DNA from: Chryseobacterium sp. RU37D | GTDB lineage: Bacteria; Bacteroidota; Bacteroidia; Flavobacteriales; Weeksellaceae | Assembly: GCF_900156075.1 (NCBI RefSeq) | Contig: NZ_FTMM01000014.1 | Span: 1 to 64,000 of the forward strand | Length of the DNA: 64,000 nucleotides | Reading direction: 5' to 3' | Shown: piece by piece, positions 7,105 to 64,000 of the stretch | Layout: each line of letters starts with the position of its first letter | How positions within the stretch are numbered: position 1 is the first letter of the stretch | The notes under the pieces: generated by a model | The model's database searches: none | The model's input: the letters and a program-made list of their open reading frames with translations, nothing else | What the model was told of the DNA's origin: nothing | Made by a program: the position numbers and the translations under genes

Positions 7105-8109
7105 ATGTCAGAGATAAATCAAGCTGAAGACATTCGTCAATTGACGGAGCAGGTAAAAGAAGCAAATTACTTTTTTTCTCTTCTGAGACAGGAAATCAAT
7201 AAAGTCATTATCGGGCAGGAATATATGATAGACCGACTTCTCATAGGTCTTTTGGGGAATGGCCACATTCTTTTGGAAGGGGTTCCGGGATTAGCCAAAA
7301 CACTGGCAATAAAAACACTTGCAAATGCCGTTCATGGTGAGTTCTCAAGAATTCAGTTTACCCCGGACTTGCTTCCTGCAGATGTCGTGGGAACCATGAT
7401 TTATAATGTGAAGGACAATGATTTTTCCATCAAAAGAGGTCCTGTTTTTGCCAATTTTGTGCTGGCAGATGAGATCAACCGTGCTCCTGCAAAAGTACAG
7501 TCTGCCTTATTGGAGGTGATGCAGGAAAAGCAGGTGACCATCGGCGATGAAACCATGCAGCTTCCAAAACCGTTTCTGGTGCTGGCAACACAAAACCCGA
7601 TCGACCAGGAAGGTACATATCTTTTACCGGAAGCACAAAGCGACCGTTTTATGCTAAAATGCACCGTTGATTATCCTAAATTTGAAGATGAAAGAACGGT
7701 AATGAGAATGGTTTCTACTTCCCATCAGCCAGCAGTAAAGCCGGTAATCTCTCTTGAACATATCGTCGAAGCAAAGAAATTGATCAATCAGATCTATCTT
7801 GACGAAAAAATTGAAAAATATATCCTGGATATGGTTTTTGCAACCCGTTTCCCGGAAAATTACGGTCTTTCTGAGCTTAAAAATTATATTGGTTTTGGTG
7901 CTTCTCCAAGGGCATCGATTAACCTGGCTATAGCTTCAAGGGCGTACGCCTTCTTAAAGGGAAGGGCTTTTGTGATTCCTGAGGATGTAAAAGAATTGGC
8001 GAAAGATGTGTTGAGACACAGAATTGGTCTAACTTTCGAAGCTGAGGCAGAAGAAGTTTCATCAGAAGAAATTATCAACAGAATTTTAGCGAAAATCCAG
8101 GCTCCGTAA
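7105..8109 (+). CDS. moxR: MoxR-family AAA+ ATPase
   Basis: A 334-residue MoxR-type AAA+ ATPase, a chaperone thought to act with von Willebrand factor A (VWA) proteins. Walker A is GVPGLAKT (residues 59-66) and Walker B is LADEINRAP (about 120-128). Sensor-type residues in LATQNPIDQEGTYLLPEAQSDRF and the C-terminal lid with GASPRASI are present. It is the first gene of an eight-gene plus-strand run and overlaps the next start by one base (TAATG). In Bacteroides, the matching Bat genes contribute to aerotolerance, but in Flavobacteriia the role is inferred by homology. Confidence 0.92.
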   Translation: MSEINQAEDIRQLTEQVKEANYFFSLLRQEINKVIIGQEYMIDRLLIGLLGNGHILLEGVPGLAKTLAIKTLANAVHGEFSRIQFTPDLLPADVVGTMIYNVKDNDFSIKRGPVFANFVLADEINRAPAKVQSALLEVMQEKQVTIGDETMQLPKPFLVLATQNPIDQEGTYLLPEAQSDRFMLKCTVDYPKFEDERTVMRMVSTSHQPAVKPVISLEHIVEAKKLINQIYLDEKIEKYILDMVFATRFPENYGLSELKNYIGFGASPRASINLAIASRAYAFLKGRAFVIPEDVKELAKDVLRHRIGLTFEAEAEEVSSEEIINRILAKIQAP

Positions 8110-8561
8110 TGAGTGAAGTGGTGATTAGAAAAGCGGTTCGGGAGGATTGCGCTTCAATGCTGGAGTTAATCAAAGAATTGGCTGATTATGAAAAGGCTTT
8201 GCACGAAGTTACTTTAACTTTAGAACAATTTATTGAAGATGGATTCGGAAAATCGCCCGTTTGGGGAGCTTTCGTTGCGGAATTTAATGAAGAAATTGTT
8301 GGGATTTCCTTGTATTACAACAGATATTCAACATGGAAGGGAAGAAGATTGTATCTGGAAGACCTGGTGGTGACGGAAAAGCTAAGAGGAAAGCAGATCG
8401 GTAAGAAGTTATTTGATGCAACGCTGGAATACGGAAAATCCAATCAATACAGCGGCATGGTTTTGCAGGTATTGAACTGGAACGAGCCGGCCATTAATTT
8501 CTATAAAAAATATAACCCGAAATTTGATGATGAATGGTTTAATGTGTCTGTGGAGTTTTAA
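8109..8561 (+). CDS. GNAT N-acetyltransferase (SSAT-like)
   Basis: A 150-residue GCN5-related acetyltransferase. Motif A for acetyl-CoA binding is visible as RGKQIGKKL (residues 93-101), preceded by the beta-strand LYLEDLVV. That LYLEDL pattern, together with NWNEPAINFYKKY near the C-terminus, resembles the diamine/spermidine acetyltransferase branch, but the substrate is not certain. The gene starts inside the moxR stop codon (TAATG), so its translation is coupled to moxR. An acetyltransferase is not one of the usual Bat components; it is placed between the ATPase and the DUF58 gene. Confidence 0.87.
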   Translation: MSEVVIRKAVREDCASMLELIKELADYEKALHEVTLTLEQFIEDGFGKSPVWGAFVAEFNEEIVGISLYYNRYSTWKGRRLYLEDLVVTEKLRGKQIGKKLFDATLEYGKSNQYSGMVLQVLNWNEPAINFYKKYNPKFDDEWFNVSVEF

Positions 8562-8612
8562 ATTAGTTATGAGTTATGACCTGCAAGCTGTAATCTAAAA
8601 TCTATTACCTAA

Positions 8613-9476
8613 ATGAAAATAAAAGATATTGTAAAAAAAGTCAAGCAGATAGAAATCCGTACCCGAAAGAAAACGGAAGCTACTTTGATGGGGCAATATC
8701 ATAGTGCTTTTAAAGGACTGGGAATGACCTTCTCGGAGGTTCGTCCATATCAATTCGGGGATGAAATCCGAAGAATTGACTGGAATAAGACGGCGCGATT
8801 CCGTGAACCCTTTGTAAAAGTAATGGAGGAGGAAAGGGAGCTGACGATGATGTTGCTGGTAGATATTTCCGCTTCGATGGATTACGGGACAAAAACTCAG
8901 CTGAAAAGGGAATATGTAGCGGAAATTGCGGCAAGCTTAGGCTTTTCGGCAGCAGGAAATAATGATAAAGTAGGGCTGATTTTATTCGCTGAGAAGGTAT
9001 ATAAAGTGATTCCTCCACAAAAAGGAAGAAAGCATATTCTTTCGATTATCAGCACTATTCTGACGGCAGATTATGTACCCGCCGTATCAAAAATTGATAA
9101 AGCGATGGAATATATGATGGGAATTTTTAAAAGAAAATCCTTAGTTTTCCTGTTCTCGGATTTTGAAGATGAATATGATTCTAAAATGCTGAGAGTGGTA
9201 TCCAAAAAGCATCAGTTGCTGGGAATGAGGATTTTTGACGAAAAAGACAATGAGATTCCGGATGTGGGCTATACTTTATTATATGATGCCGAAACAGGAA
9301 AACAGGTCTGGGCAAATACTTCCAGTGCAAGATGGAGATATACTTTTGCAGAGGCTCAAAAGAAAAAATTAAGGGCTTTGGAGGATGATTTTAACAATAG
9401 TTCTGCGAGTTTTATGAATATTAATACGGGTTCGGATTATTCGAAATTATTGTATAATTATTTTCAGAAGAAATAA
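8613..9476 (+). CDS. DUF58 domain protein of the Bat operon
   Basis: A 287-residue cytosolic protein with a DUF58 core (FGDEIRRIDWNKTARF, about residues 48-63) followed by a VWA-like fold with a MIDAS-type DISAS motif at residues 84-88. These proteins are regular partners of MoxR ATPases. It has no signal peptide. It lies 51 bp after the acetyltransferase gene, and 78 bp of repeat-like DNA separates it from the next gene. Its biochemical function is unknown. The association with MoxR and VWA genes is the strongest clue. Confidence 0.9.
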   Translation: MKIKDIVKKVKQIEIRTRKKTEATLMGQYHSAFKGLGMTFSEVRPYQFGDEIRRIDWNKTARFREPFVKVMEEERELTMMLLVDISASMDYGTKTQLKREYVAEIAASLGFSAAGNNDKVGLILFAEKVYKVIPPQKGRKHILSIISTILTADYVPAVSKIDKAMEYMMGIFKRKSLVFLFSDFEDEYDSKMLRVVSKKHQLLGMRIFDEKDNEIPDVGYTLLYDAETGKQVWANTSSARWRYTFAEAQKKKLRALEDDFNNSSASFMNINTGSDYSKLLYNYFQKK

Positions 9477-55420: not shown

Positions 55421-55951
55421 ATGAAAAAGGACATCGAAAAATCAGAAACTTTAGAAAAAATTGCTAACGGAATTACCTGGTGGATTGGTTCTATACCGTC
55501 ACTTATAGCGCATACTTTATTTTTTATCGTTTCGTTTTTGCTTCCCCTGCTTCATCTGGTGGAGTTTGACAAAATGCTACTGATCCTTACTACTGTTGTA
55601 TCTCTCGAGGCTATTTATTTAGCTATTTTTATCCAGATGTCGGTGAACAAAAGCCACGAGAAAATTGAAGATATCCAGGAGGATATCGAAGAAATCAGTG
55701 AAGATATTGAGGATATTCAGGAAGATATCGAGGAAATCAGTGAAGATATTGAGGAGATCAACGAAGATATTGAAGACATCCAGGAGGATATAGAAGAGAT
55801 CAACGAGGAAGAAGACGATGAAGATCACAGCGAACGCGCAAAAAATGTGATGCTGAAAAGTAATGTGAGCTCAAATAAAAATGAAATTAAAGCTTTAAAG
55901 GATAAGATTGAGGAGCTTCAAAACAAAATAGATGAGCTTAGAAAAGAATAA
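55421..55951 (+). CDS. DUF1003-like membrane protein with heptad repeats
   Basis: A 176-residue protein that resembles DUF1003 proteins. It has two helices (SIPSLIAHTLFFIVSFLLPL, about residues 24-43, and MLLILTTVVSLEAIYLAIFI, about 52-71), then a long charged coiled-coil. Residues 82-130 are seven exact heptads of the form IEDIQED, IEEISED or IEEINED, encoded by 21-bp repeats. After an acidic stretch the last 40 residues form another coil. It probably sits in the inner membrane with a cytosolic rod for self-association. It is the third gene after RNase Z and ends at a terminator. Confidence 0.82.
   Translation: MKKDIEKSETLEKIANGITWWIGSIPSLIAHTLFFIVSFLLPLLHLVEFDKMLLILTTVVSLEAIYLAIFIQMSVNKSHEKIEDIQEDIEEISEDIEDIQEDIEEISEDIEEINEDIEDIQEDIEEINEEEDDEDHSERAKNVMLKSNVSSNKNEIKALKDKIEELQNKIDELRKE
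55664..55810 (+). repeat. 21-bp tandem repeats coding for seven heptads
   Basis: Seven 21-bp units, such as ATTGAAGATATCCAGGAGGA and variants, are in phase with the gene and encode the IE(D/E)I heptads. Such repeats can shift by whole units without breaking the frame. Confidence 0.85.
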
Positions 55952-56130: not shown

Positions 56131-56138
56131 TATTTTTG
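56131..56138 (+). promoter_or_regulatory. -7 element TATTTTTG for the first anchor L gene
   Basis: The stretch ATAGTATTTTTG matches the one before the next paralogue (58653-58664). The -7 lies 16 bp before the ATG at 56155. No good -33 was found here. Confidence 0.5.
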
Positions 56139-56154
56139 GATAAACAATTATAAA

Positions 56155-58509
56155 ATGTTAAAATATAGATTGAAAAATTACTTTAAGATTAGTTTTATTC
56201 TCTTTTTCCTTTTTGGCATTCTTACTTCTGCGCAAAAAAACAGACCGCCAGCAAAGAAAAATATTCCTGCTAACGCGAAGGCAGGTGATTATATTGATGT
56301 CAACGTACCCCCTTATCCTCAAAGCAATTTTACAGCAGCTCAATTAGTAAGCGATGTGCTTGTAGGCAATTCCGGTGGGTGTAGTGCACCCAATATTTCC
56401 AATGTGATTGTTACACCCAATCAGCCTGTCACAAATAATAATAGGTTCTGGGGATATTTTAATAAAGGAACATCAACCTTTCCATTTCAGGAAGGAATTG
56501 TTTTAACAACTGGCTTTGCCAGAAAAGCAGGGAATACTGCTGAAGGAGGGGTTCTAAGTGACGGAAATGGTGGAGGAAGCGATCCTGACCTTATTGCAGC
56601 AATTGGTGTAACAACACAAATCAGTAATGCGGCAATTTTAGAATTTGACTTTGTTCCTAACAGTACGCTAATGAAGTTTAACTATATTTTTGCTTCCGAA
56701 GAGTATACGGGTAACTTTCCTTGTCCTCCTTTTCAGTATGATGATGCTTTCGCTTTATTGTTAAAGCCTAATACACCAGGGGCTCCTTATGTAAATTTGG
56801 CAGTTTTGCCGGGTGGTGCAGGACCTGTTTCTGTACCTAATATTCTGCCTGCCAGCTTCGCTTGTGGTCCTATTAATGCTCAGTATTTTGGTTCTTTGGC
56901 ACCTAATGCTACTAATTATAACGGAACCACCGCAGTACTTACTGCTCAGGCTAACGTTATTCCGGGACAATCTTATCATATAAAAATGGTTGTTGCCGAT
57001 GCGCGTGACAGTAGCTATGGTTCTGCTGTTTTTCTGCAAGCCGGATCTTTCGATATCGGGATGTCAATTGTTGATGGTAACGGAAACCCCATCACCAATG
57101 CGAATATGTGTGATAATACACCTCAGATTTTAAAAGCGCAGGTCGCTACAGTTCCGGGAATGACTTTCCAATGGTATAAAAATGATGTTGCCATTCCGGG
57201 AGCCACAAATGCTACCTATACAGCCACATCACCGGGGGTATATACAGTAAGAACCTTTGTAGGAGGGACACAATGTCAGAATGCAAGCTGTACCATTGTG
57301 GGCGGAACAACCCCTCCGGCGCAGAATGCTACCTTAAAGCTTTGTACAACGCCTTCAGTTTCTACATTTAATTTAAATGATGCAACTCCAATGATAACCA
57401 GTTCTACAACAGCTATTGTTCGTTATTATATCAACCAGGCGGATGCTATTGCACAGAATGCAGCATATATTAATCCGACGTTATTGGGAAGTTACAATGG
57501 GACTGACGGACAGGTTCTATATGTTGTGGTTTCAAACGGAGCTTTCTGTAGCAAACTGGTTACTTTAACGCTGAAAAAAGAAGCAACACCTGTAGCACAG
57601 CTTACTGCTACAAAAGTAAAAATATGTGCAGGAGAATCTACGACGCTTACTGCTTCAAACGGGGTTACTTACGAATGGGTAGGAATGTCCGGAACAGGAA
57701 ATACACAGGTTGTTTCCCCTACACAGACGACTACGTACTCAGTGTATGCTATCGGAGCTCAAGGCTGTAAATCTCTGCAGCCGGCATCTGTTACCGTAGA
57801 AGTTGTACCGGCAATTACTTCAAACCTTTCAGGAGGAATGATCTGTGAAGGAGATGTTATCACTTTAGATGCAGGAACGGGACCGAATTACCATTATACC
57901 TGGAATACAGGTGATCTTACACAGACGATTAGTGTGGGAACTCCGGGAACCTATTCAGTAACTATTAATAACGGCGTTTGTACAAAAGTATTTACTACAC
58001 AGGTTATTCAGGCAGTTATTCCAGAAATTATCAATGTAGATTACAGCGAAAATGGAACAATGATTCTTACAGCAAGTAATCCAAGCAACGGAGCTTTGGA
58101 ATATTCTATCGACAACGGTGTTACATGGCAAAATTCAAATATTTTTACGAATGTTCCTAGAAATATTGTAGTTTCTATCAGAGTAAGAGTGAAGCGTACA
58201 AGTTGTATTGGCTTCCTAGAATATTTCACATTCGTAATGCAAAATGTCATTACACCGAACGGAGATAATATCAATGATATGATTGACCTGAGAGGAGTTC
58301 TTAAGTATAAAGATTTCAAAGCTTCCATCTTCGACCGTTACGGAAGAGAGGTCTATAAAGCCAGTAACCTACAGCCTTATTGGGACGGATATTTCCAGGG
58401 AAAACGCCTTCCTACAGCATCTTACTGGTATCAGGTAAGTTTTGAAGATCCGGCAAGTAAGAAACCTGCAGTAAAAACAGGCTGGATTTTATTAAAAAAT
58501 ATTGAATAA
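56155..58509 (+). CDS. Choice-of-anchor L / T9SS type B surface protein, paralogue 1
   Basis: A 784-residue exported protein. After the signal peptide comes the choice-of-anchor L domain (about residues 45-300), with WGYFNKGTSTFPFQEGIVLT and FVPNSTLMKFNYIFASEEYT as its best marks. Next are Ig-like/PKD-like modules (for example ICAGESTTLTASNGVTYEWV), and the C-terminal about 85 residues are a T9SS type B (gliding motility-associated) sorting domain: NVITPNGDNINDMIDLRG, FDRYGREVYKASN and SYWYQVSFE. It should be moved over the outer membrane and kept on the surface. It is monocistronic with its own terminator and is the shortest of three tandem paralogues. Confidence 0.87.
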   Translation: MLKYRLKNYFKISFILFFLFGILTSAQKNRPPAKKNIPANAKAGDYIDVNVPPYPQSNFTAAQLVSDVLVGNSGGCSAPNISNVIVTPNQPVTNNNRFWGYFNKGTSTFPFQEGIVLTTGFARKAGNTAEGGVLSDGNGGGSDPDLIAAIGVTTQISNAAILEFDFVPNSTLMKFNYIFASEEYTGNFPCPPFQYDDAFALLLKPNTPGAPYVNLAVLPGGAGPVSVPNILPASFACGPINAQYFGSLAPNATNYNGTTAVLTAQANVIPGQSYHIKMVVADARDSSYGSAVFLQAGSFDIGMSIVDGNGNPITNANMCDNTPQILKAQVATVPGMTFQWYKNDVAIPGATNATYTATSPGVYTVRTFVGGTQCQNASCTIVGGTTPPAQNATLKLCTTPSVSTFNLNDATPMITSSTTAIVRYYINQADAIAQNAAYINPTLLGSYNGTDGQVLYVVVSNGAFCSKLVTLTLKKEATPVAQLTATKVKICAGESTTLTASNGVTYEWVGMSGTGNTQVVSPTQTTTYSVYAIGAQGCKSLQPASVTVEVVPAITSNLSGGMICEGDVITLDAGTGPNYHYTWNTGDLTQTISVGTPGTYSVTINNGVCTKVFTTQVIQAVIPEIINVDYSENGTMILTASNPSNGALEYSIDNGVTWQNSNIFTNVPRNIVVSIRVRVKRTSCIGFLEYFTFVMQNVITPNGDNINDMIDLRGVLKYKDFKASIFDRYGREVYKASNLQPYWDGYFQGKRLPTASYWYQVSFEDPASKKPAVKTGWILLKNIE

Positions 58510-58530
58510 ATATCTAAACATAATATGAAG

Positions 58531-58558
58531 AAAGACCAACAATTTGTTGGTCTTTTTT
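58531..58558 (+). terminator. Terminator between anchor L paralogues 1 and 2
   Basis: AAAGACCAAC and GTTGGTCTTT form a 10-bp perfect stem with an AATTT loop and a T run, 22 bp past the paralogue 1 stop. Confidence 0.87.
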
Positions 58559-58632
58559 GGTTTTTAAGGTAAAAAAAATTGATATTTTACGATATTTCAG
58601 ATTGTAATAGTGATAATGTAATTTCATCTGAA

Positions 58633-58664
58633 TTGAATTTCAATCAAAAAAAATAGTATTTTTG
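58633..58664 (+). promoter_or_regulatory. Promoter TTG-N21-TATTTTTG for paralogue 2
   Basis: TTG (58633-58635) and TATTTTTG (58657-58664) are 21 bp apart, a full consensus. So paralogue 2 is transcribed separately. Confidence 0.65.
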
Positions 58665-58680
58665 TTTAAAATAATATAAA

Positions 58681-61600
58681 ATGTTAAATAGGAGGATAAG
58701 ACATTTATTTTTGACTTTATTTTTAGTTCTTGCGGGAAGCTTTATTTTTGCTCAGGAAAGGGGGAAAGGTATCGTCAAAAAAGCTACGGCTCAGAGCATG
58801 AAAGCAGGTGCTTTTATCGATGTAAATGCTGCCGGTTATCCGGAATCAAATTACAGTATTACACAATTGGTAAAAGAAGTGCTTATCAGCGGTGGTTCCA
58901 CATGTTCTGCAGCCAATGTAAGTAACGTTGTGGTTTCTCCTAATTTACCACCGACGGATCAGAACAGAAGCTGGGGATACTTTAATAAAGCAACCACCAA
59001 CTTTCCCTTTGCCAAAGGTATTGTCCTTACCACAGGATATGCAAGAAAAGCAGGAAATACATTTCAGGGTACTTTAAGTGACGGCCTTCCTGTACAAGGA
59101 GATGCTGACCTTGCTGCGGCACTTGGATTGCCTAATGCCCAGCTGAAAGACGCATCCTATATCGAATTTGATTTTGTACCGGCCTCTACTAAGGTTTCCT
59201 TCAGATATTTATTTGCTTCAAAAGAATATCAGCAGGATTATCCCTGCTCAATCAGTGACGGTTTTGCATTATTATTAAAAAAAGTAGGCGATCCTAACTA
59301 TACAAATCTTGCTGTTTTACCATCGGGCCAGCCTGTAAGTGTTACTAATATCCACCCTGCGATATCCACCCCGGGTGGTTCAGGGTGTCCTGCCGTAAAC
59401 CAGTCTTTCTTCGACGGCTACAATACATCCAATATAGAAACTAATTATGATGGACGTGTTATTCCTCTTACGGCGGAAGCAACAGTAATTCCGGGACAGA
59501 CGTATCATTTCAAAATGGTATTGGCAGATTATCAGGATTCAAACTTTGATTCTGCTGTTTTCCTTGAAGCCGGATCTTTTGATATTGGTGTTAAAATCCT
59601 TGATCCTGCAGGAGCGACTCTTCCTCCATCTATTAACGTTTGTGATAATGTACCTCAGACTTTTACAGCCTCAGTTCAGGGTGGTGGAGCTACCTATGTA
59701 TGGCTTTTAAATAATACACCTATTCCGGGAGCAACCAATGCATCATATACGGCAACACAACCGGGAACTTATACCGTTCAGGTATTCCTTCCGGGGAACA
59801 CTTGTCCGGGAACTGCTACTGTCACGATTGTGGGAGGTACTTCACCTACGGTTCAGAATTCTACCCTCACGGCTTGCTATACCCAGGGTAATGCAATATT
59901 TAATTTAACATCGGCACAGGGAGCAATAAGTACGACTCCGGGTGCTACTTTTTCATATTATATTAATCAGTCAGACGCACTGGCCGGAAATGCCAATACA
60001 ATTTCCAATACTACGGCTTTCCCAAGTCCGGGGCAAACGATTTATGTCTTAGTAAAAAACGGATTCTGTTCAAAAGTAGCTGAGCTGCAATTGATAAAAG
60101 CTCCGCAAATGACAGCTACAATTGCTCCTCCGGCTGTTTTAACGTGCGCCAATTCACAAACTACGCTTGATGCCTCAACTTCTGTTTATCCCACAGGATC
60201 TACATTCAGCTGGACTACTTCAAACGGAAATATTGTTTCCGGAGCTAATACCCTAAATCCTGTAATAAACTCAGCGGGGACTTATATTTTAACAATATCA
60301 AATACTTATCAGCCTGGAAATTTAACTTGTACTGCAACAGCCAATGTTACCGTAACAGGTGACAGTGCTCCGCCTACAACCGGCCTTACAGCAAGTAAAG
60401 TATTGATCTGTGCAGGAGAATCAGTGGTATTAACAGCTTCTGGAGGTACAACTTACAATTGGGTAGGCTTATCGGGAACTGGAAATACACAGACCGTTTC
60501 ACCAACTGCCACTACTACATACACAGTAACTGCAGTAGGAGTAAACGGATGTGTTTCTGCAAATCCTGCGATGATTACGATTCAGGTTAATCAGCCATTT
60601 ACAGCTCAGAACGCAACTTTATTTAAGTGTTATCAGGATGGAGGAATTAATTATGATCTAACAGAAGCTCAACCTCAAATTACTTCTGCAACTGGGGTTA
60701 CTTTTGCATATTATATTAATCTTTCAGATGCCAATGCAGGAAATACAAATACTATTGCCAATCCGGCTTCTTTCAATAGTGCAGGAGGGCAGACCATTTA
60801 TGTTCTGGTATCAAATGGAGGATGTAGATATGTTGTTAATCTTCAGTTATTGGCAACGCCACAAACTATATTAACTATCGCTGCGCCACAACAGATTACC
60901 TGTACAACGACTCAGATTACTCTGAATGCTTCTGCTTCTGTAATCCCTGCAGGATCTACAATTGCATGGACTACATCTGGAGGCGGAAATATTGTTTCCG
61001 GAGCTAATACTTTAAATCCGGTAGTAAATGCAGGTGGAGTATATACCTTAACAGTTTCAAATGTTAATCAGCCAGGAAATCTTACCTGTACCTATACAGC
61101 TAATGTTACGGTAACTCAAAATACAACACTTCCTGTGGCAACAGTGACGTCTACCGTGTTTCAGATCTGTCCGGGAGAATCTGTGACATTAACGGCTTCG
61201 GGTGGGGCTACTTACAACTGGGTAGGCTTACCGGGAACAGGAAATACGCAAGTGGTTTCTCCGGCGGTTACTACAACATACACGGTTTTTGCGGTAGGAG
61301 CAAACGGTTGTGTTTCTACAAACCCTGCTACCATTACAATCGTTGTAGGTCCGCCGGTGGCAGTTTTAAGCGCTTCAAAATCTAAAATCTGTGCAGGAGA
61401 ATCTGTGACATTAACAGCTTCAGGAGGTGTTACTTATGAATGGGTAGGCCTTCCTGGAAACGGAAATACCCAGGTGGTTTCCCCAACTGCGACTACTATT
61501 TACTGCGTTTTTGCCCTGGGTGGAAACGGGTGTAAAGTAGCTACCCCGACTTGTATTACCATTCAAGTGGTTCCTGCAATAGTTTCCACATTACAGGATG

Positions 61601-62274
61601 TATATGTTTGTGCCGGAGATTTCGGAACATTAGATGCCGGGGCTGGGCCTAACTATACTTATCTTTGGAATACAGGTGCAACTACTCAGACGATTTCTGT
61701 AAATACACCGGGAACTTATTCGGTAACAATCAGTAACGGAGTTTGTTCCAAAGTATTTACAGCCCAGCTGATCAATCCTACATTACCACAGTTTACTAAT
61801 ATTGTATACGAAAATCATGTATTGACACTCACTGCTACTAATCCTACGGGTGGAACTCTTGAATATTCCATAGATGCAGGATTTACATGGCAGAATTCAA
61901 ATATTTTCTATAATGTTTTGGATAATACAAGCTACAATTTGATGGTAAGAGTGAAAGATGCAAAATGCGGTACTTCACTGGAATACTTCACTTTTGTGAT
62001 CAGTAATGCCATTACACCAAATTCTGATGGTAAAAATGATAGTGTAGATTTTTCAGGAATCAGCAAGTATAATAATTTTGCGGCTTCAATCTTCGATAGA
62101 TATGGGCAGGAGGTATTTAAGGCAACTAAAACAGATACGGTTTGGCATGGAACTATAAGAGGAAGTATTAATCTTCCTACAGCCACATATTGGTATCATG
62201 TACAGTGGGAAAATCCTGCAAGTAAAAAACTTGAGCTGCGAAGCGGATGGATTTTGCTGAAAAACAGGAATTAG
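58681..62274 (+). CDS. Choice-of-anchor L / T9SS type B surface protein, paralogue 2
   Basis: A 1197-residue exported protein. A signal peptide is followed by the choice-of-anchor L domain (about residues 40-310, with WGYFNKATTNFPFAKGIVLT and FVPASTKVSFRYLFASKEYQ). Then come Ig-like modules, including a tandem block of about 251 residues present twice: the anchor TGC-TAT/TGT-TAT codons at 59875 and 60628 are 753 bp apart, and matching ICAGESVVLTASGG and ICPGESVTLTASGG stretches are 759 bp apart. A further Cys-x-GES module follows 74 residues later. The T9SS type B sorting domain closes the protein (ITPNSDGKNDSVDFSGISKY, FDRYGQEVF, YWYHVQWE). Surface location is inferred. Confidence 0.87.
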   Translation: MLNRRIRHLFLTLFLVLAGSFIFAQERGKGIVKKATAQSMKAGAFIDVNAAGYPESNYSITQLVKEVLISGGSTCSAANVSNVVVSPNLPPTDQNRSWGYFNKATTNFPFAKGIVLTTGYARKAGNTFQGTLSDGLPVQGDADLAAALGLPNAQLKDASYIEFDFVPASTKVSFRYLFASKEYQQDYPCSISDGFALLLKKVGDPNYTNLAVLPSGQPVSVTNIHPAISTPGGSGCPAVNQSFFDGYNTSNIETNYDGRVIPLTAEATVIPGQTYHFKMVLADYQDSNFDSAVFLEAGSFDIGVKILDPAGATLPPSINVCDNVPQTFTASVQGGGATYVWLLNNTPIPGATNASYTATQPGTYTVQVFLPGNTCPGTATVTIVGGTSPTVQNSTLTACYTQGNAIFNLTSAQGAISTTPGATFSYYINQSDALAGNANTISNTTAFPSPGQTIYVLVKNGFCSKVAELQLIKAPQMTATIAPPAVLTCANSQTTLDASTSVYPTGSTFSWTTSNGNIVSGANTLNPVINSAGTYILTISNTYQPGNLTCTATANVTVTGDSAPPTTGLTASKVLICAGESVVLTASGGTTYNWVGLSGTGNTQTVSPTATTTYTVTAVGVNGCVSANPAMITIQVNQPFTAQNATLFKCYQDGGINYDLTEAQPQITSATGVTFAYYINLSDANAGNTNTIANPASFNSAGGQTIYVLVSNGGCRYVVNLQLLATPQTILTIAAPQQITCTTTQITLNASASVIPAGSTIAWTTSGGGNIVSGANTLNPVVNAGGVYTLTVSNVNQPGNLTCTYTANVTVTQNTTLPVATVTSTVFQICPGESVTLTASGGATYNWVGLPGTGNTQVVSPAVTTTYTVFAVGANGCVSTNPATITIVVGPPVAVLSASKSKICAGESVTLTASGGVTYEWVGLPGNGNTQVVSPTATTIYCVFALGGNGCKVATPTCITIQVVPAIVSTLQDVYVCAGDFGTLDAGAGPNYTYLWNTGATTQTISVNTPGTYSVTISNGVCSKVFTAQLINPTLPQFTNIVYENHVLTLTATNPTGGTLEYSIDAGFTWQNSNIFYNVLDNTSYNLMVRVKDAKCGTSLEYFTFVISNAITPNSDGKNDSVDFSGISKYNNFAASIFDRYGQEVFKATKTDTVWHGTIRGSINLPTATYWYHVQWENPASKKLELRSGWILLKNRN
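59858..61350 (+). repeat. Tandem duplication of a 251-codon coding block
   Basis: Block 1 (about 59858-60608) and block 2 (about 60611-61350) encode the same order of features: a cysteine-tyrosine start, YYIN(Q/L)SDA, IYVLV(K/S)NG, SGANTLNPV, QPGNLTC and a GESV-LTASGG module. The copies differ at many codons, so the duplication is not recent. Confidence 0.8.
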
Positions 62275-62344
62275 AAATTTATATTAGATATTTTGTTTTT
62301 TAATAAAAAGTTAAATATAGTATGTGATATATTTAAAAAAAAAT

Positions 62345-62352
62345 TAAATTTG
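62345..62352 (+). promoter_or_regulatory. -7 element TAAATTTG for paralogue 3
   Basis: TAAATTTG matches TAnnTTTG and is 16 bp before the ATG at 62369. A clear -33 is missing. Confidence 0.4.
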
Positions 62353-62368
62353 TTGAAAAAAAATTCTT

Positions 62369-64000
62369 ATGAAGAGATATCTACTATTGTTCTCCTTATT
62401 TATGACCTCCTCGTCTAGTCTCTTTTATTCGCAAGTACTTACTCCAAGAAAACTTCAAAATGAAAAAGCTTCCGCTCCGACAATGAAAGCAGGGGCTTTT
62501 ATTGATGTGAATGCAACTGGGTATGCGGCTTCGAGTTATGATCCTCTACAGTTGGTTAAAGACGTATTAATTTCATCCGGAACCAATTCTTGCGTTACCC
62601 CAAACGTATCGAATGTTCAGGTAAGTCCAAGCTTACCAGCAAGTAATAATAACAGATCCTGGGGATATTTTCACAAGGCGACTACCAACTTTCCCTTTAA
62701 AGATGGAATTGTACTTTCTACAGGTTATGTAAGAAGATCTGGGAATAGCTTCGAAAGTACTACCTTAGGTGATATTTTACCGACCGGGAGTGATCCAGAT
62801 CTTGTAGCAGCTACCAATCCCTCAGCAACCCTTAATGATGCTGTTATTTTGGAATTCGATTTTGTACCGACTTCCAGCCAGGTAAAATTCAACTATCTCT
62901 TTGCTTCCGAAGAATATACAGGTACCTTTCCATGTAGCTTTGGTGATTCATTTGCTTTATTGCTGAAACCTACTGCAGGCGGACCTTACATAAATATGGC
63001 GATTGTGCCGACTCCTGGTACAGGTCCAGTAAGTATTACCAATATCCATCCCCAAAATAGTTTTTCGGGAACTAATATGGGGTGTGGTGCACCAAATGTA
63101 GCTTTTTTTGGTGGATATAACACATCTAATATTGAAACAAATTATAATGGCAGAACTGTCCCAATGAAGGCTACTGCTACAGTAATTCCAGGCCAGTCTT
63201 ATCACTTTAAAATGGTTTTAGCTGATGCCATAGATAGAAGCTTTGACTCTGCGGTATTCTTAGAGGGGGGATCTTTTAACATAGGTGTTGAATTGTTAGA
63301 TCCTTCAGGAGTCACTTTGCCGGAAGAAATCAATGTTTGTGACAATGTACCTCAGGTAATTACAGCTTCTGTAAGTGACCCTAATATGACTTATCAATGG
63401 TTTTATAACGGAGTTGCCGTACAGGGTGCTACAACACCTACGATTACTGCAACACAGCCGGGTAACTATGAGATTCAGGTAACTTTTCCTGGAAATCCTT
63501 GTCCAGGTAAAGCCAATATTAAAATTAACGGCGGAACAACACCGACGGCGGTAGATGCCTCATTGCTGCTTTGTACAACTACGGATGTTACATGGTTTGA
63601 TCTCACGAATGCAATGCCTTCGATCAGTACAACTCCGGGCGCTGTTTTCCATTTTTATGAAAATCAAGCTGATGCACTAGCTCAGAATAATAATTATATT
63701 ACAGATGTTTTACATTATAATGGAAATGACGGGCAAATCCTGTATGTGGTAGTTTCCAACGGAGGATTCTGTAGCAAAATGATTGAATTAAAACTATTAA
63801 AAGAAGCTACTCCTACAGCTCAGGTAGTTGCATCAAAAATTAAAGTTTGTCCGGGTGAAACCGTAAACCTTACTGCAACAGGTGGTGCTACCTATGAATG
63901 GGCAAACTTTCCGGGAACAGGAAACACACAATCTGCTACTGTTTACAATACCACTACATTCTCAGTATATGCTTTAGGTCCGAAAGGATGTAAGTCTTTA
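62369..64000 (+). CDS. Choice-of-anchor L surface protein, paralogue 3 (cut by window end)
   Basis: The frame is open from ATG 62369 to the window edge (544 codons, no stop), so only the first part is seen. The signal peptide is KRYLLLFSLFMTSSSSLFYS. The choice-of-anchor L domain follows (WGYFHKATTNFPFKDGIVLS, then FVPTSSQVKFNYLFASEEYT), with ETNYNGRTVPMKATATVIPG and later Ig-like modules (VCPGETVNLTATGGATYEWA near the edge). It is closest in layout to paralogue 1. The C-terminus, expected to hold a T9SS type B sorting domain, lies beyond the window. Confidence 0.87.
   Translation, partial: MKRYLLLFSLFMTSSSSLFYSQVLTPRKLQNEKASAPTMKAGAFIDVNATGYAASSYDPLQLVKDVLISSGTNSCVTPNVSNVQVSPSLPASNNNRSWGYFHKATTNFPFKDGIVLSTGYVRRSGNSFESTTLGDILPTGSDPDLVAATNPSATLNDAVILEFDFVPTSSQVKFNYLFASEEYTGTFPCSFGDSFALLLKPTAGGPYINMAIVPTPGTGPVSITNIHPQNSFSGTNMGCGAPNVAFFGGYNTSNIETNYNGRTVPMKATATVIPGQSYHFKMVLADAIDRSFDSAVFLEGGSFNIGVELLDPSGVTLPEEINVCDNVPQVITASVSDPNMTYQWFYNGVAVQGATTPTITATQPGNYEIQVTFPGNPCPGKANIKINGGTTPTAVDASLLLCTTTDVTWFDLTNAMPSISTTPGAVFHFYENQADALAQNNNYITDVLHYNGNDGQILYVVVSNGGFCSKMIELKLLKEATPTAQVVASKIKVCPGETVNLTATGGATYEWANFPGTGNTQSATVYNTTTFSVYALGPKGCKSL

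Follow-up and report, generated by a model that had tools for sequence, protein, structure and literature searches.

A conserved trio of choice-of-anchor L proteins in Chryseobacterium whose N-terminal heads have probably been exchanged by recombination

The window analysed here is a stretch of 64,000 nucleotides (nt) from Chryseobacterium sp. RU37D (contig NZ_FTMM01000014.1, positions 1 to 64,000). At its right end lie three tandem genes on the same strand, named A, B and C in gene order. Each encodes a signal peptide, an N-terminal choice-of-anchor L (anchor-L) domain, here called the head, a series of immunoglobulin-like (Ig-like) modules, and a type B sorting domain of the type IX secretion system (T9SS) as the C-terminal domain (CTD). 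Gene C runs past the window, and the contig, which reaches 80,564, holds the rest of it. The features of the locus are as follows.

56131..56138, plus strand: TAnnTTTG −7 box of A, starting 24 nt before the ATG
56155..58509, plus strand: gene A, 784 amino acids (aa), with signal peptide, anchor-L head, Ig-like modules and type B CTD
56278..57066, plus strand: anchor-L head of A, aa 42–304, head type 9
58237..58497, plus strand: T9SS type B sorting domain of A
58528..58558, plus strand: terminator-like hairpin after A
58657..58664, plus strand: TAnnTTTG −7 box of B, starting 24 nt before the ATG, with a TTG 21 nt upstream of the box
58681..62274, plus strand: gene B, 1197 aa
58801..59595, plus strand: anchor-L head of B, a stable head (single clade)
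61999..62262, plus strand: T9SS type B sorting domain of B
62345..62352, plus strand: TAnnTTTG −7 box of C, starting 24 nt before the ATG
62369..64000, plus strand: gene C, 790 aa, continuing beyond the window to 64741
62486..63292, plus strand: anchor-L head of C, type 10 in the window
64466–64729, plus strand, beyond the window: T9SS type B sorting domain of C
about 64763–64794, beyond the window: terminator-like hairpin after C

The original prediction, made from the window, was of three neighbouring genes with a common plan, and the open reading frames (ORFs), profile matches, Ig-like modules and signal peptides bear it out. The choice-of-anchor L profile NF038133 matches A, B and C with 157, 148.1 and 159 bits (cut-off 27). 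In the genome profile scan TIGR04131 matches the end of each protein with 75, 67.5 and 71.6 bits (cut-off 35), so that the type B tail foreseen for the two complete proteins is present, and C carries one as well, beyond the window. Between head and tail are Ig_7/PKD-type modules, which fall below the Pfam cut-offs in the window-truncated C protein. The signal peptides of A, B and C all terminate in [A/S]Q, in agreement with the Bacteroidetes Q-rule (PMC5837995). The Ig-like block of A matches B twice (the B 241–617 region and B 644–1195), so that B looks internally duplicated and probably grew in this way. The same prediction called the proteins giant, which overstates their sizes of 784, 1197 and 790 aa; they are large only. 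It also allowed for further copies after the third gene. In the contig past 64 kb, however, C ends at 64741 and is followed by a terminator-like hairpin and then by ksgA on the opposite strand. C is therefore not the start of a longer array, and the locus holds exactly three genes. A profile search of the whole genome found three anchor-L matches, all in the trio.

Anchor-L matches are present in all 173 of the 173 Chryseobacterium genomes, with three in 153, two in 3, four in 14 and five in 3. In the wider family 202 of 246 genomes, representing 18 of the 27 genera, have the domain, and outside Chryseobacterium most of the genomes that bear it have one or two matches. Gene order and sizes, about 787/1196/789 aa, are constant in 28 named trio loci; some A genes retain a longer form of about 871–878 aa. 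The loci share their flanks, namely a TIGR02757-type DUF2400 gene, a DUF1003 coiled-coil protein gene, ksgA and ftsX. Eight distinct sister-genus loci (L072, L073, L074/L194, L193, L195, L204, L205 and L206) have in the same place a single gene, between the DUF1003/coiled-coil gene and ksgA; it measures about 866–903 aa, except for one of 1649 aa. That sister genera have a lone copy at this site makes an old tandem triplication likely, and its placement on the Chryseobacterium stem is the simplest reading.

For comparison 150 loci were used, 31 of them named and 119 stretches chosen from the best matches listed; since the stretches were hand-picked, head-type frequencies are biased. We kept 106 trios and 23 singles, and dropped 13 loci as duplicates with an identical B protein and 8 as incomplete trios (L079, L103, L111, L136, L150, L177, L181 and L185). 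The 106 trios and the window make up the 107 rows, or loci, of the counts below. The singles were not deduplicated, and L074 and L194 are probably from the same genome.

There are exceptions to the trio. L103 (G141) has a fourth anchor-L gene (622 aa as called) immediately 5′ of A, and in L185 (G076) A was not found. In L093 (G145) nt 7562–9100, between B and C, hold an IS3-type-like transposase ORF pair, the family being judged by eye. In L104 (G162) the A–B gap, 663 nt long, contains an ORF of 167 aa on the reverse strand, the start of which resembles a signal peptide. The upstream neighbour in the window (55421–55951) encodes a DUF1003 membrane protein with a highly repetitive EDIEDIQEDIEEI coiled coil, and this gene adjoins the trio genus-wide.

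The tree of the heads disagrees with the trees of the C-terminal part and the flanking genes, as it would for surface proteins whose N-terminal domain is exchanged by recombination, such as M/M-like proteins. In a careful tree of 87 heads, those of B form one clade (100/100), and those of A and C show four label changes each. When the last 300 aa of these 87 proteins are used instead, there is one clade each (100/99 or 100/100) for A, for B, for C and for the three named singles. Forcing the heads into one clade costs 239 log-likelihood units for A and 244.5 for C, and the approximately unbiased (AU) test rejects one clade for both (p=2.9e-12 and p=1.1e-6, respectively). FastTree analysis of the 106 trios, the window and the 23 singles gave 5, 2 and 5 label changes for the heads of A, B and C, 2, 2 and 1 for the next 170 aa, and 1 each for the C-terminal 310 aa. 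A cut of 0.30 divides the A heads into six types. Type 9, to which the A head of the window belongs, occupies A in 16 and C in 7 of the 107 loci, and is found in 8 single-copy rows (two probably from one genome). These trees suggest that heads have been swapped in the course of evolution, mostly at A, now and then at C and hardly at B, while the trio stayed.

A species tree was built from the flanking genes for the 100 of the 107 rows having at least three of five flanking proteins, one species each. On this tree the six A-head types need 26 changes, the minimum being 5. Eight control segments, divided into six types each, need 9 (A-Ig), 7 (A-CTD), 7 (B head), 7 (B-Ig), 8 (B-CTD), 10 (C head), 5 (C-Ig) and 6 (C-CTD). 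The contrast survives the collapse of branches with support below 0.8, 0.9 or 0.95 and the use of a tree from flanks plus B body, with 23–26 changes for the A head. Therefore species-tree error or general transfer of the locus is not the explanation. The A-head count is well under the shuffled mean of 53.9, indicating that exchange, though frequent, is not unrestricted. There are 311 near pairs, defined by a flank distance <0.05; in these the head distance exceeds the body distance by more than 0.15 in 28 for A, 0 for B and 2 for C.

Closely related pairs indicate where the divergent segment begins and ends. By A body, B and C, the nearest relatives of the window are L118/L143/L050; its nearest A head is that of L184 and, across positions, the C heads of L101/L054. 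Window and L118 differ by 44.2% in the A head, 8.9% in A-Ig, 6.0% in A-CTD, 14.0% in the B head and 12.3% in the C head. L051 and L140 differ by 2.5% in the flanks, 39.8% in the A head, 7.8% in A-Ig, 1.9% in the B head and 2.7% in the C head. For L053 and L101 it is the C head that differs (30.3%, with 2.9% in C-Ig), and at silent sites their fourfold identity is 0.18–0.55 in most blocks of the C head versus mostly 0.8–1.0 in the body. In the last two pairs the start-codon stretch is 97–98% identical, the identity drops inside the signal peptide, and it recovers near codons 290–320. In A, the divergent segment of the clearest pairs starts near codon 5–10, and it ends near codon 295. There are 36 A pairs with different head types and a body distance <0.16, of which 8 disjoint pairs were fitted for edges. 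Their 3′ edges lie at nt 771–1228. The 5′ edges are spread from −295 to +27, because the intergenic region diverges as well.

Several sources of the heads were considered. A phage origin was set aside, as neither the C gene fragment nor the A head has a phage match. A plasmid origin was also rejected, with two weak plasmid matches only, from Deinococcus and Pseudosulfitobacter at 28–30% identity. Recent intragenomic gene conversion does not fit a within-genome A–C head identity of at most 0.78. The genome encodes DprA and ComEC, both of which are widespread and occur in non-competent bacteria too (10 of 14 control genomes each). Riemerella belongs to the same family as Chryseobacterium. It is naturally competent, and homologues of its key proteins are listed in Chryseobacterium (PMC8459023). 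A link between the trio and surface proteins of Riemerella natural transformation was discarded, since the protein there is choice-of-anchor J, not L.

The head is modelled with confidence as a beta-sandwich, with a predicted local distance difference test score (pLDDT) of 93.3 and a predicted template modelling score (pTM) of 0.92. The full-length A model (pLDDT 78.5, pTM 0.42) resembles beads on a string, with no reliable arrangement. The best VIA structure matches of the head are MAM, Kgp adhesin domains, carbohydrate-binding modules and Eph ligand-binding domains, with Z at most 7.2, and the VIA comparison gave no match at Z 8 or more. The gingipain cleaved-adhesin domains K1–K3, MAM and carbohydrate-binding modules are like the head in their beta-sandwich arrangement (VIA Z 6.2–7.2, within the common-arrangement range), but have no detectable sequence kinship with it. 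A search for a solved relative by sequence returned only RecU at E 0.071, which is chance level, and the search for a named fold family gave 1,653 Foldseek matches at E<=10, of which one had E<=0.001 (TM 0.24). Among A heads, variation amounts to 0.55 bits for strands, 0.97 for helices and 1.18 for coil. One loop, at model positions 91–100 (GVLSDGNGGG in the window), reaches 2.56 bits. In this model the concentration of variation in loops fits a binding tip without proving one, and the head may recognise a ligand.

We consider it fairly probable that the locus is a core trio of paralogous T9SS type B surface proteins in which the head of A, less often that of C, is swapped by recombination. 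The trio, its triplication, the domain plan, the promoter spacing and the head–body incongruence are read from the sequences; from them we infer export, surface display, uptake-driven recombination, a binding function and a selective agent. Tandem triplication of a single gene would have produced the three paralogues, all of which would be made, each probably from its own promoter. Sec would export the proteins, the T9SS would take them over the outer membrane, and the type B tail would retain them there. The beta-sandwich head would be the outermost part, borne on a stalk made of Ig-like modules. B would keep its head, while A, less often C, would repeatedly receive a divergent signal-peptide-plus-head segment from other species. 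Such recombination would be fed by foreign DNA and would leave promoter and body in place. The likely driver would be selection, acting on the target of the head or on whatever attaches to it, be it a surface ligand, a partner cell, a phage or a predator.

A number of points weigh against this reading. The sample holds one genome per species, so the head differences are those seen among species, and the pairs are not mutually independent. The silent sites of window and L118 are near saturation across much of the body too, and this pair therefore rests on protein identity. The 5′ edge is sharp in only part of the pairs, and it is in part of them, not in all, that the promoter has clearly been retained. 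Type 9 heads are present in the single-copy genes of 7 of the 8 distinct sister-genus loci; in some cases, therefore, the head may be an ancestral one that was kept and not an import. The VIA matches, at Z of 7.2 or less, may reflect only the common sandwich arrangement. There is also a reverse case, in which L117 and each of L154, L156 and L175 have A heads and CTDs 94–98% identical and an Ig block about 29% different; this is perhaps an exchange of the body, or an alignment effect of an extra module.

A bolder proposal, which we hold as a tentative possibility, is that A is a dedicated variable slot, with a genus-wide pool of heads, B as the invariant partner and C as an occasional slot, together forming a surface recognition code. 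The heads would then probably spread via natural transformation, by homologous recombination in the conserved 5′ end and at the head–body junction. The T9SS-based code would serve for partners, prey surfaces or phage escape.

Old trans-species polymorphism must be weighed against the import of heads. By this account several head alleles are kept in each lineage by balancing selection and are randomly sorted, not imported. We judge it rather unlikely, with real points in its favour: deep allele types are found in more than one species, and type 9 is shared with sister genera. Recombination between head and body is still required, however, and polymorphism alone cannot place type 9 heads on C bodies. 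It is improbable that the A head merely diverges faster, under relaxed or diversifying selection and without exchange. Of the nine segments, the A head does show the largest median distance (0.359), with variation concentrated in loops. Such ordinary divergence is contradicted by the silent sites, which break at the protein's edge in close pairs, by the recurrence of the same head types in unrelated species and at both A and C, and by the AU tests.

Each gene of the trio was also predicted to have its own TAnnTTTG element, and it does: the box stands 24 nt before each ATG in the window, and the same holds in most loci. Within 120 nt upstream of the starts of A, B and C, the box is found in 99, 103 and 103 of the 107 loci, where shuffles expect 12.8, 12.6 and 15.1; with start choice allowed, the numbers are 106, 107 and 105. 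The distance to the ATG is exactly 24 nt in 88, 90 and 84 loci. For comparison, 12 of 40 other window ORFs carry TAnnTTTG within 150 nt, at scattered distances. No more than 22, 53 and 8 loci have a TTG 17–25 nt upstream of the box, which falls short of establishing a full two-part promoter for A and C. In Flavobacterium psychrophilum the box spans −12 to −5, and leaders have a median length of 24 nt (PMC9723704). From that position and the 24-nt spacing, leaders of about 12 nt are predicted for the trio. A generic sigma-70 promoter scan gave 22 sites versus 24.5 expected and was not used.

Terminator-like hairpins are found in 89 of the 107 A–B gaps, in 70 B–C gaps and after C in 80 loci (0.0, 0.3 and 0.7 in shuffles). 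The terminator foreseen after the first gene is matched by the hairpin at 58528–58558. The 94-nt B–C gap of the window has no terminator-like site, and for this reason B and C in the window may in part share a transcript. Of the separate control that was proposed, the −7 box of each gene and the hairpins in most A–B gaps and after most C genes speak for it, and the hairpin-free B–C gap of the window speaks against it. Separate transcription is better backed for A than for B against C.

Separate boxes and hairpins would also suit phase or antigenic variation, with one of three interchangeable proteins made at a time. This is quite improbable, since each position is orthologous genus-wide and the genome has no other anchor-L gene. 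In addition, a search of the gaps and 2.5 kb flanks in 106 trios, which was not aimed at invertible elements as such, turned up no head-like fragment that could act as a silent cassette. The predicted set of interchangeable proteins is hence not supported in the sense of alternative expression, given also the fixed order and sizes and the orthologous body at each position; it holds as head swaps over evolutionary time. An artefact of assembly or annotation, through chimeric contigs or mislabelled paralogues, can hardly be credited: a few drafts have broken genes (L111, L136, L150), but the pattern occurs in many genomes, including single-contig assemblies (e.g. G012, G020, G140), with intact ORFs and unchanged flanks.

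The genome encodes SprA, the T9SS translocon (TIGR04189, 2041 bits, contig C31), and has 12 type B tails (one partial) and 60 type A tails. Its one PorP/SprF-like match (TIGR03519, C23:57397–58311) is not beside the trio. PMC9143113 gives 12 type B tails and 10 PorP-like proteins for Flavobacterium johnsoniae, and reports that PorP-like proteins anchor type B cargo in two species. The single PorP-like protein matched in the present genome may act as partner for many cargos, or the model may miss others. A second tandem type B family lies at C18:23685–35525, where five type B sorting domains, in ORFs of 667–750 aa, are encoded on one strand within 12 kb.

The trio proteins are like SprB of F. 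johnsoniae and PG1035 of Porphyromonas gingivalis in having a signal peptide, a long beta-rich body and a type B signal. For type B CTD proteins, retention at the surface is attributed to PorP-like proteins (PMC9143113). The trio proteins are much smaller than SprB, however, and no PorP-like gene stands alongside. The mrp-emm-enn genes of Group A Streptococcus likewise encode neighbouring paralogous surface proteins; the likeness is in how they work, with no sequence kinship claimed. In the M-protein family the variation is among strains of one species and host immunity is the pressure, whereas that of the trio is seen among species, many of them probably free-living. Chimeras of mrp-emm-enn join the exposed N-terminal part of one protein to the cell-wall end of another, with Mrp more apart (PMC9993116).

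The NF038133 entry describes a domain at the N-terminus that is combined with various anchors. It assigns no function to the domain and does not include the exchange of heads seen in the trio. Literature searches, with subscription journals mostly outside their coverage, found no paper naming choice-of-anchor L. Titles and opening lines of abstracts on T9SS surface-protein recombination and Chryseobacterium adhesins held nothing on the trio locus.

A domain named merely for being without a fixed anchor type thereby gains an evolutionary signature, the exchange of heads on a conserved body, and this signature points to specific recognition. In Chryseobacterium, a common environmental and sometimes clinical genus, an anonymous core trio becomes a candidate that can be tested for a role in adhesion specificity, kin recognition or phage sensitivity. 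Natural head-swap pairs are available, in which little else at the locus differs.

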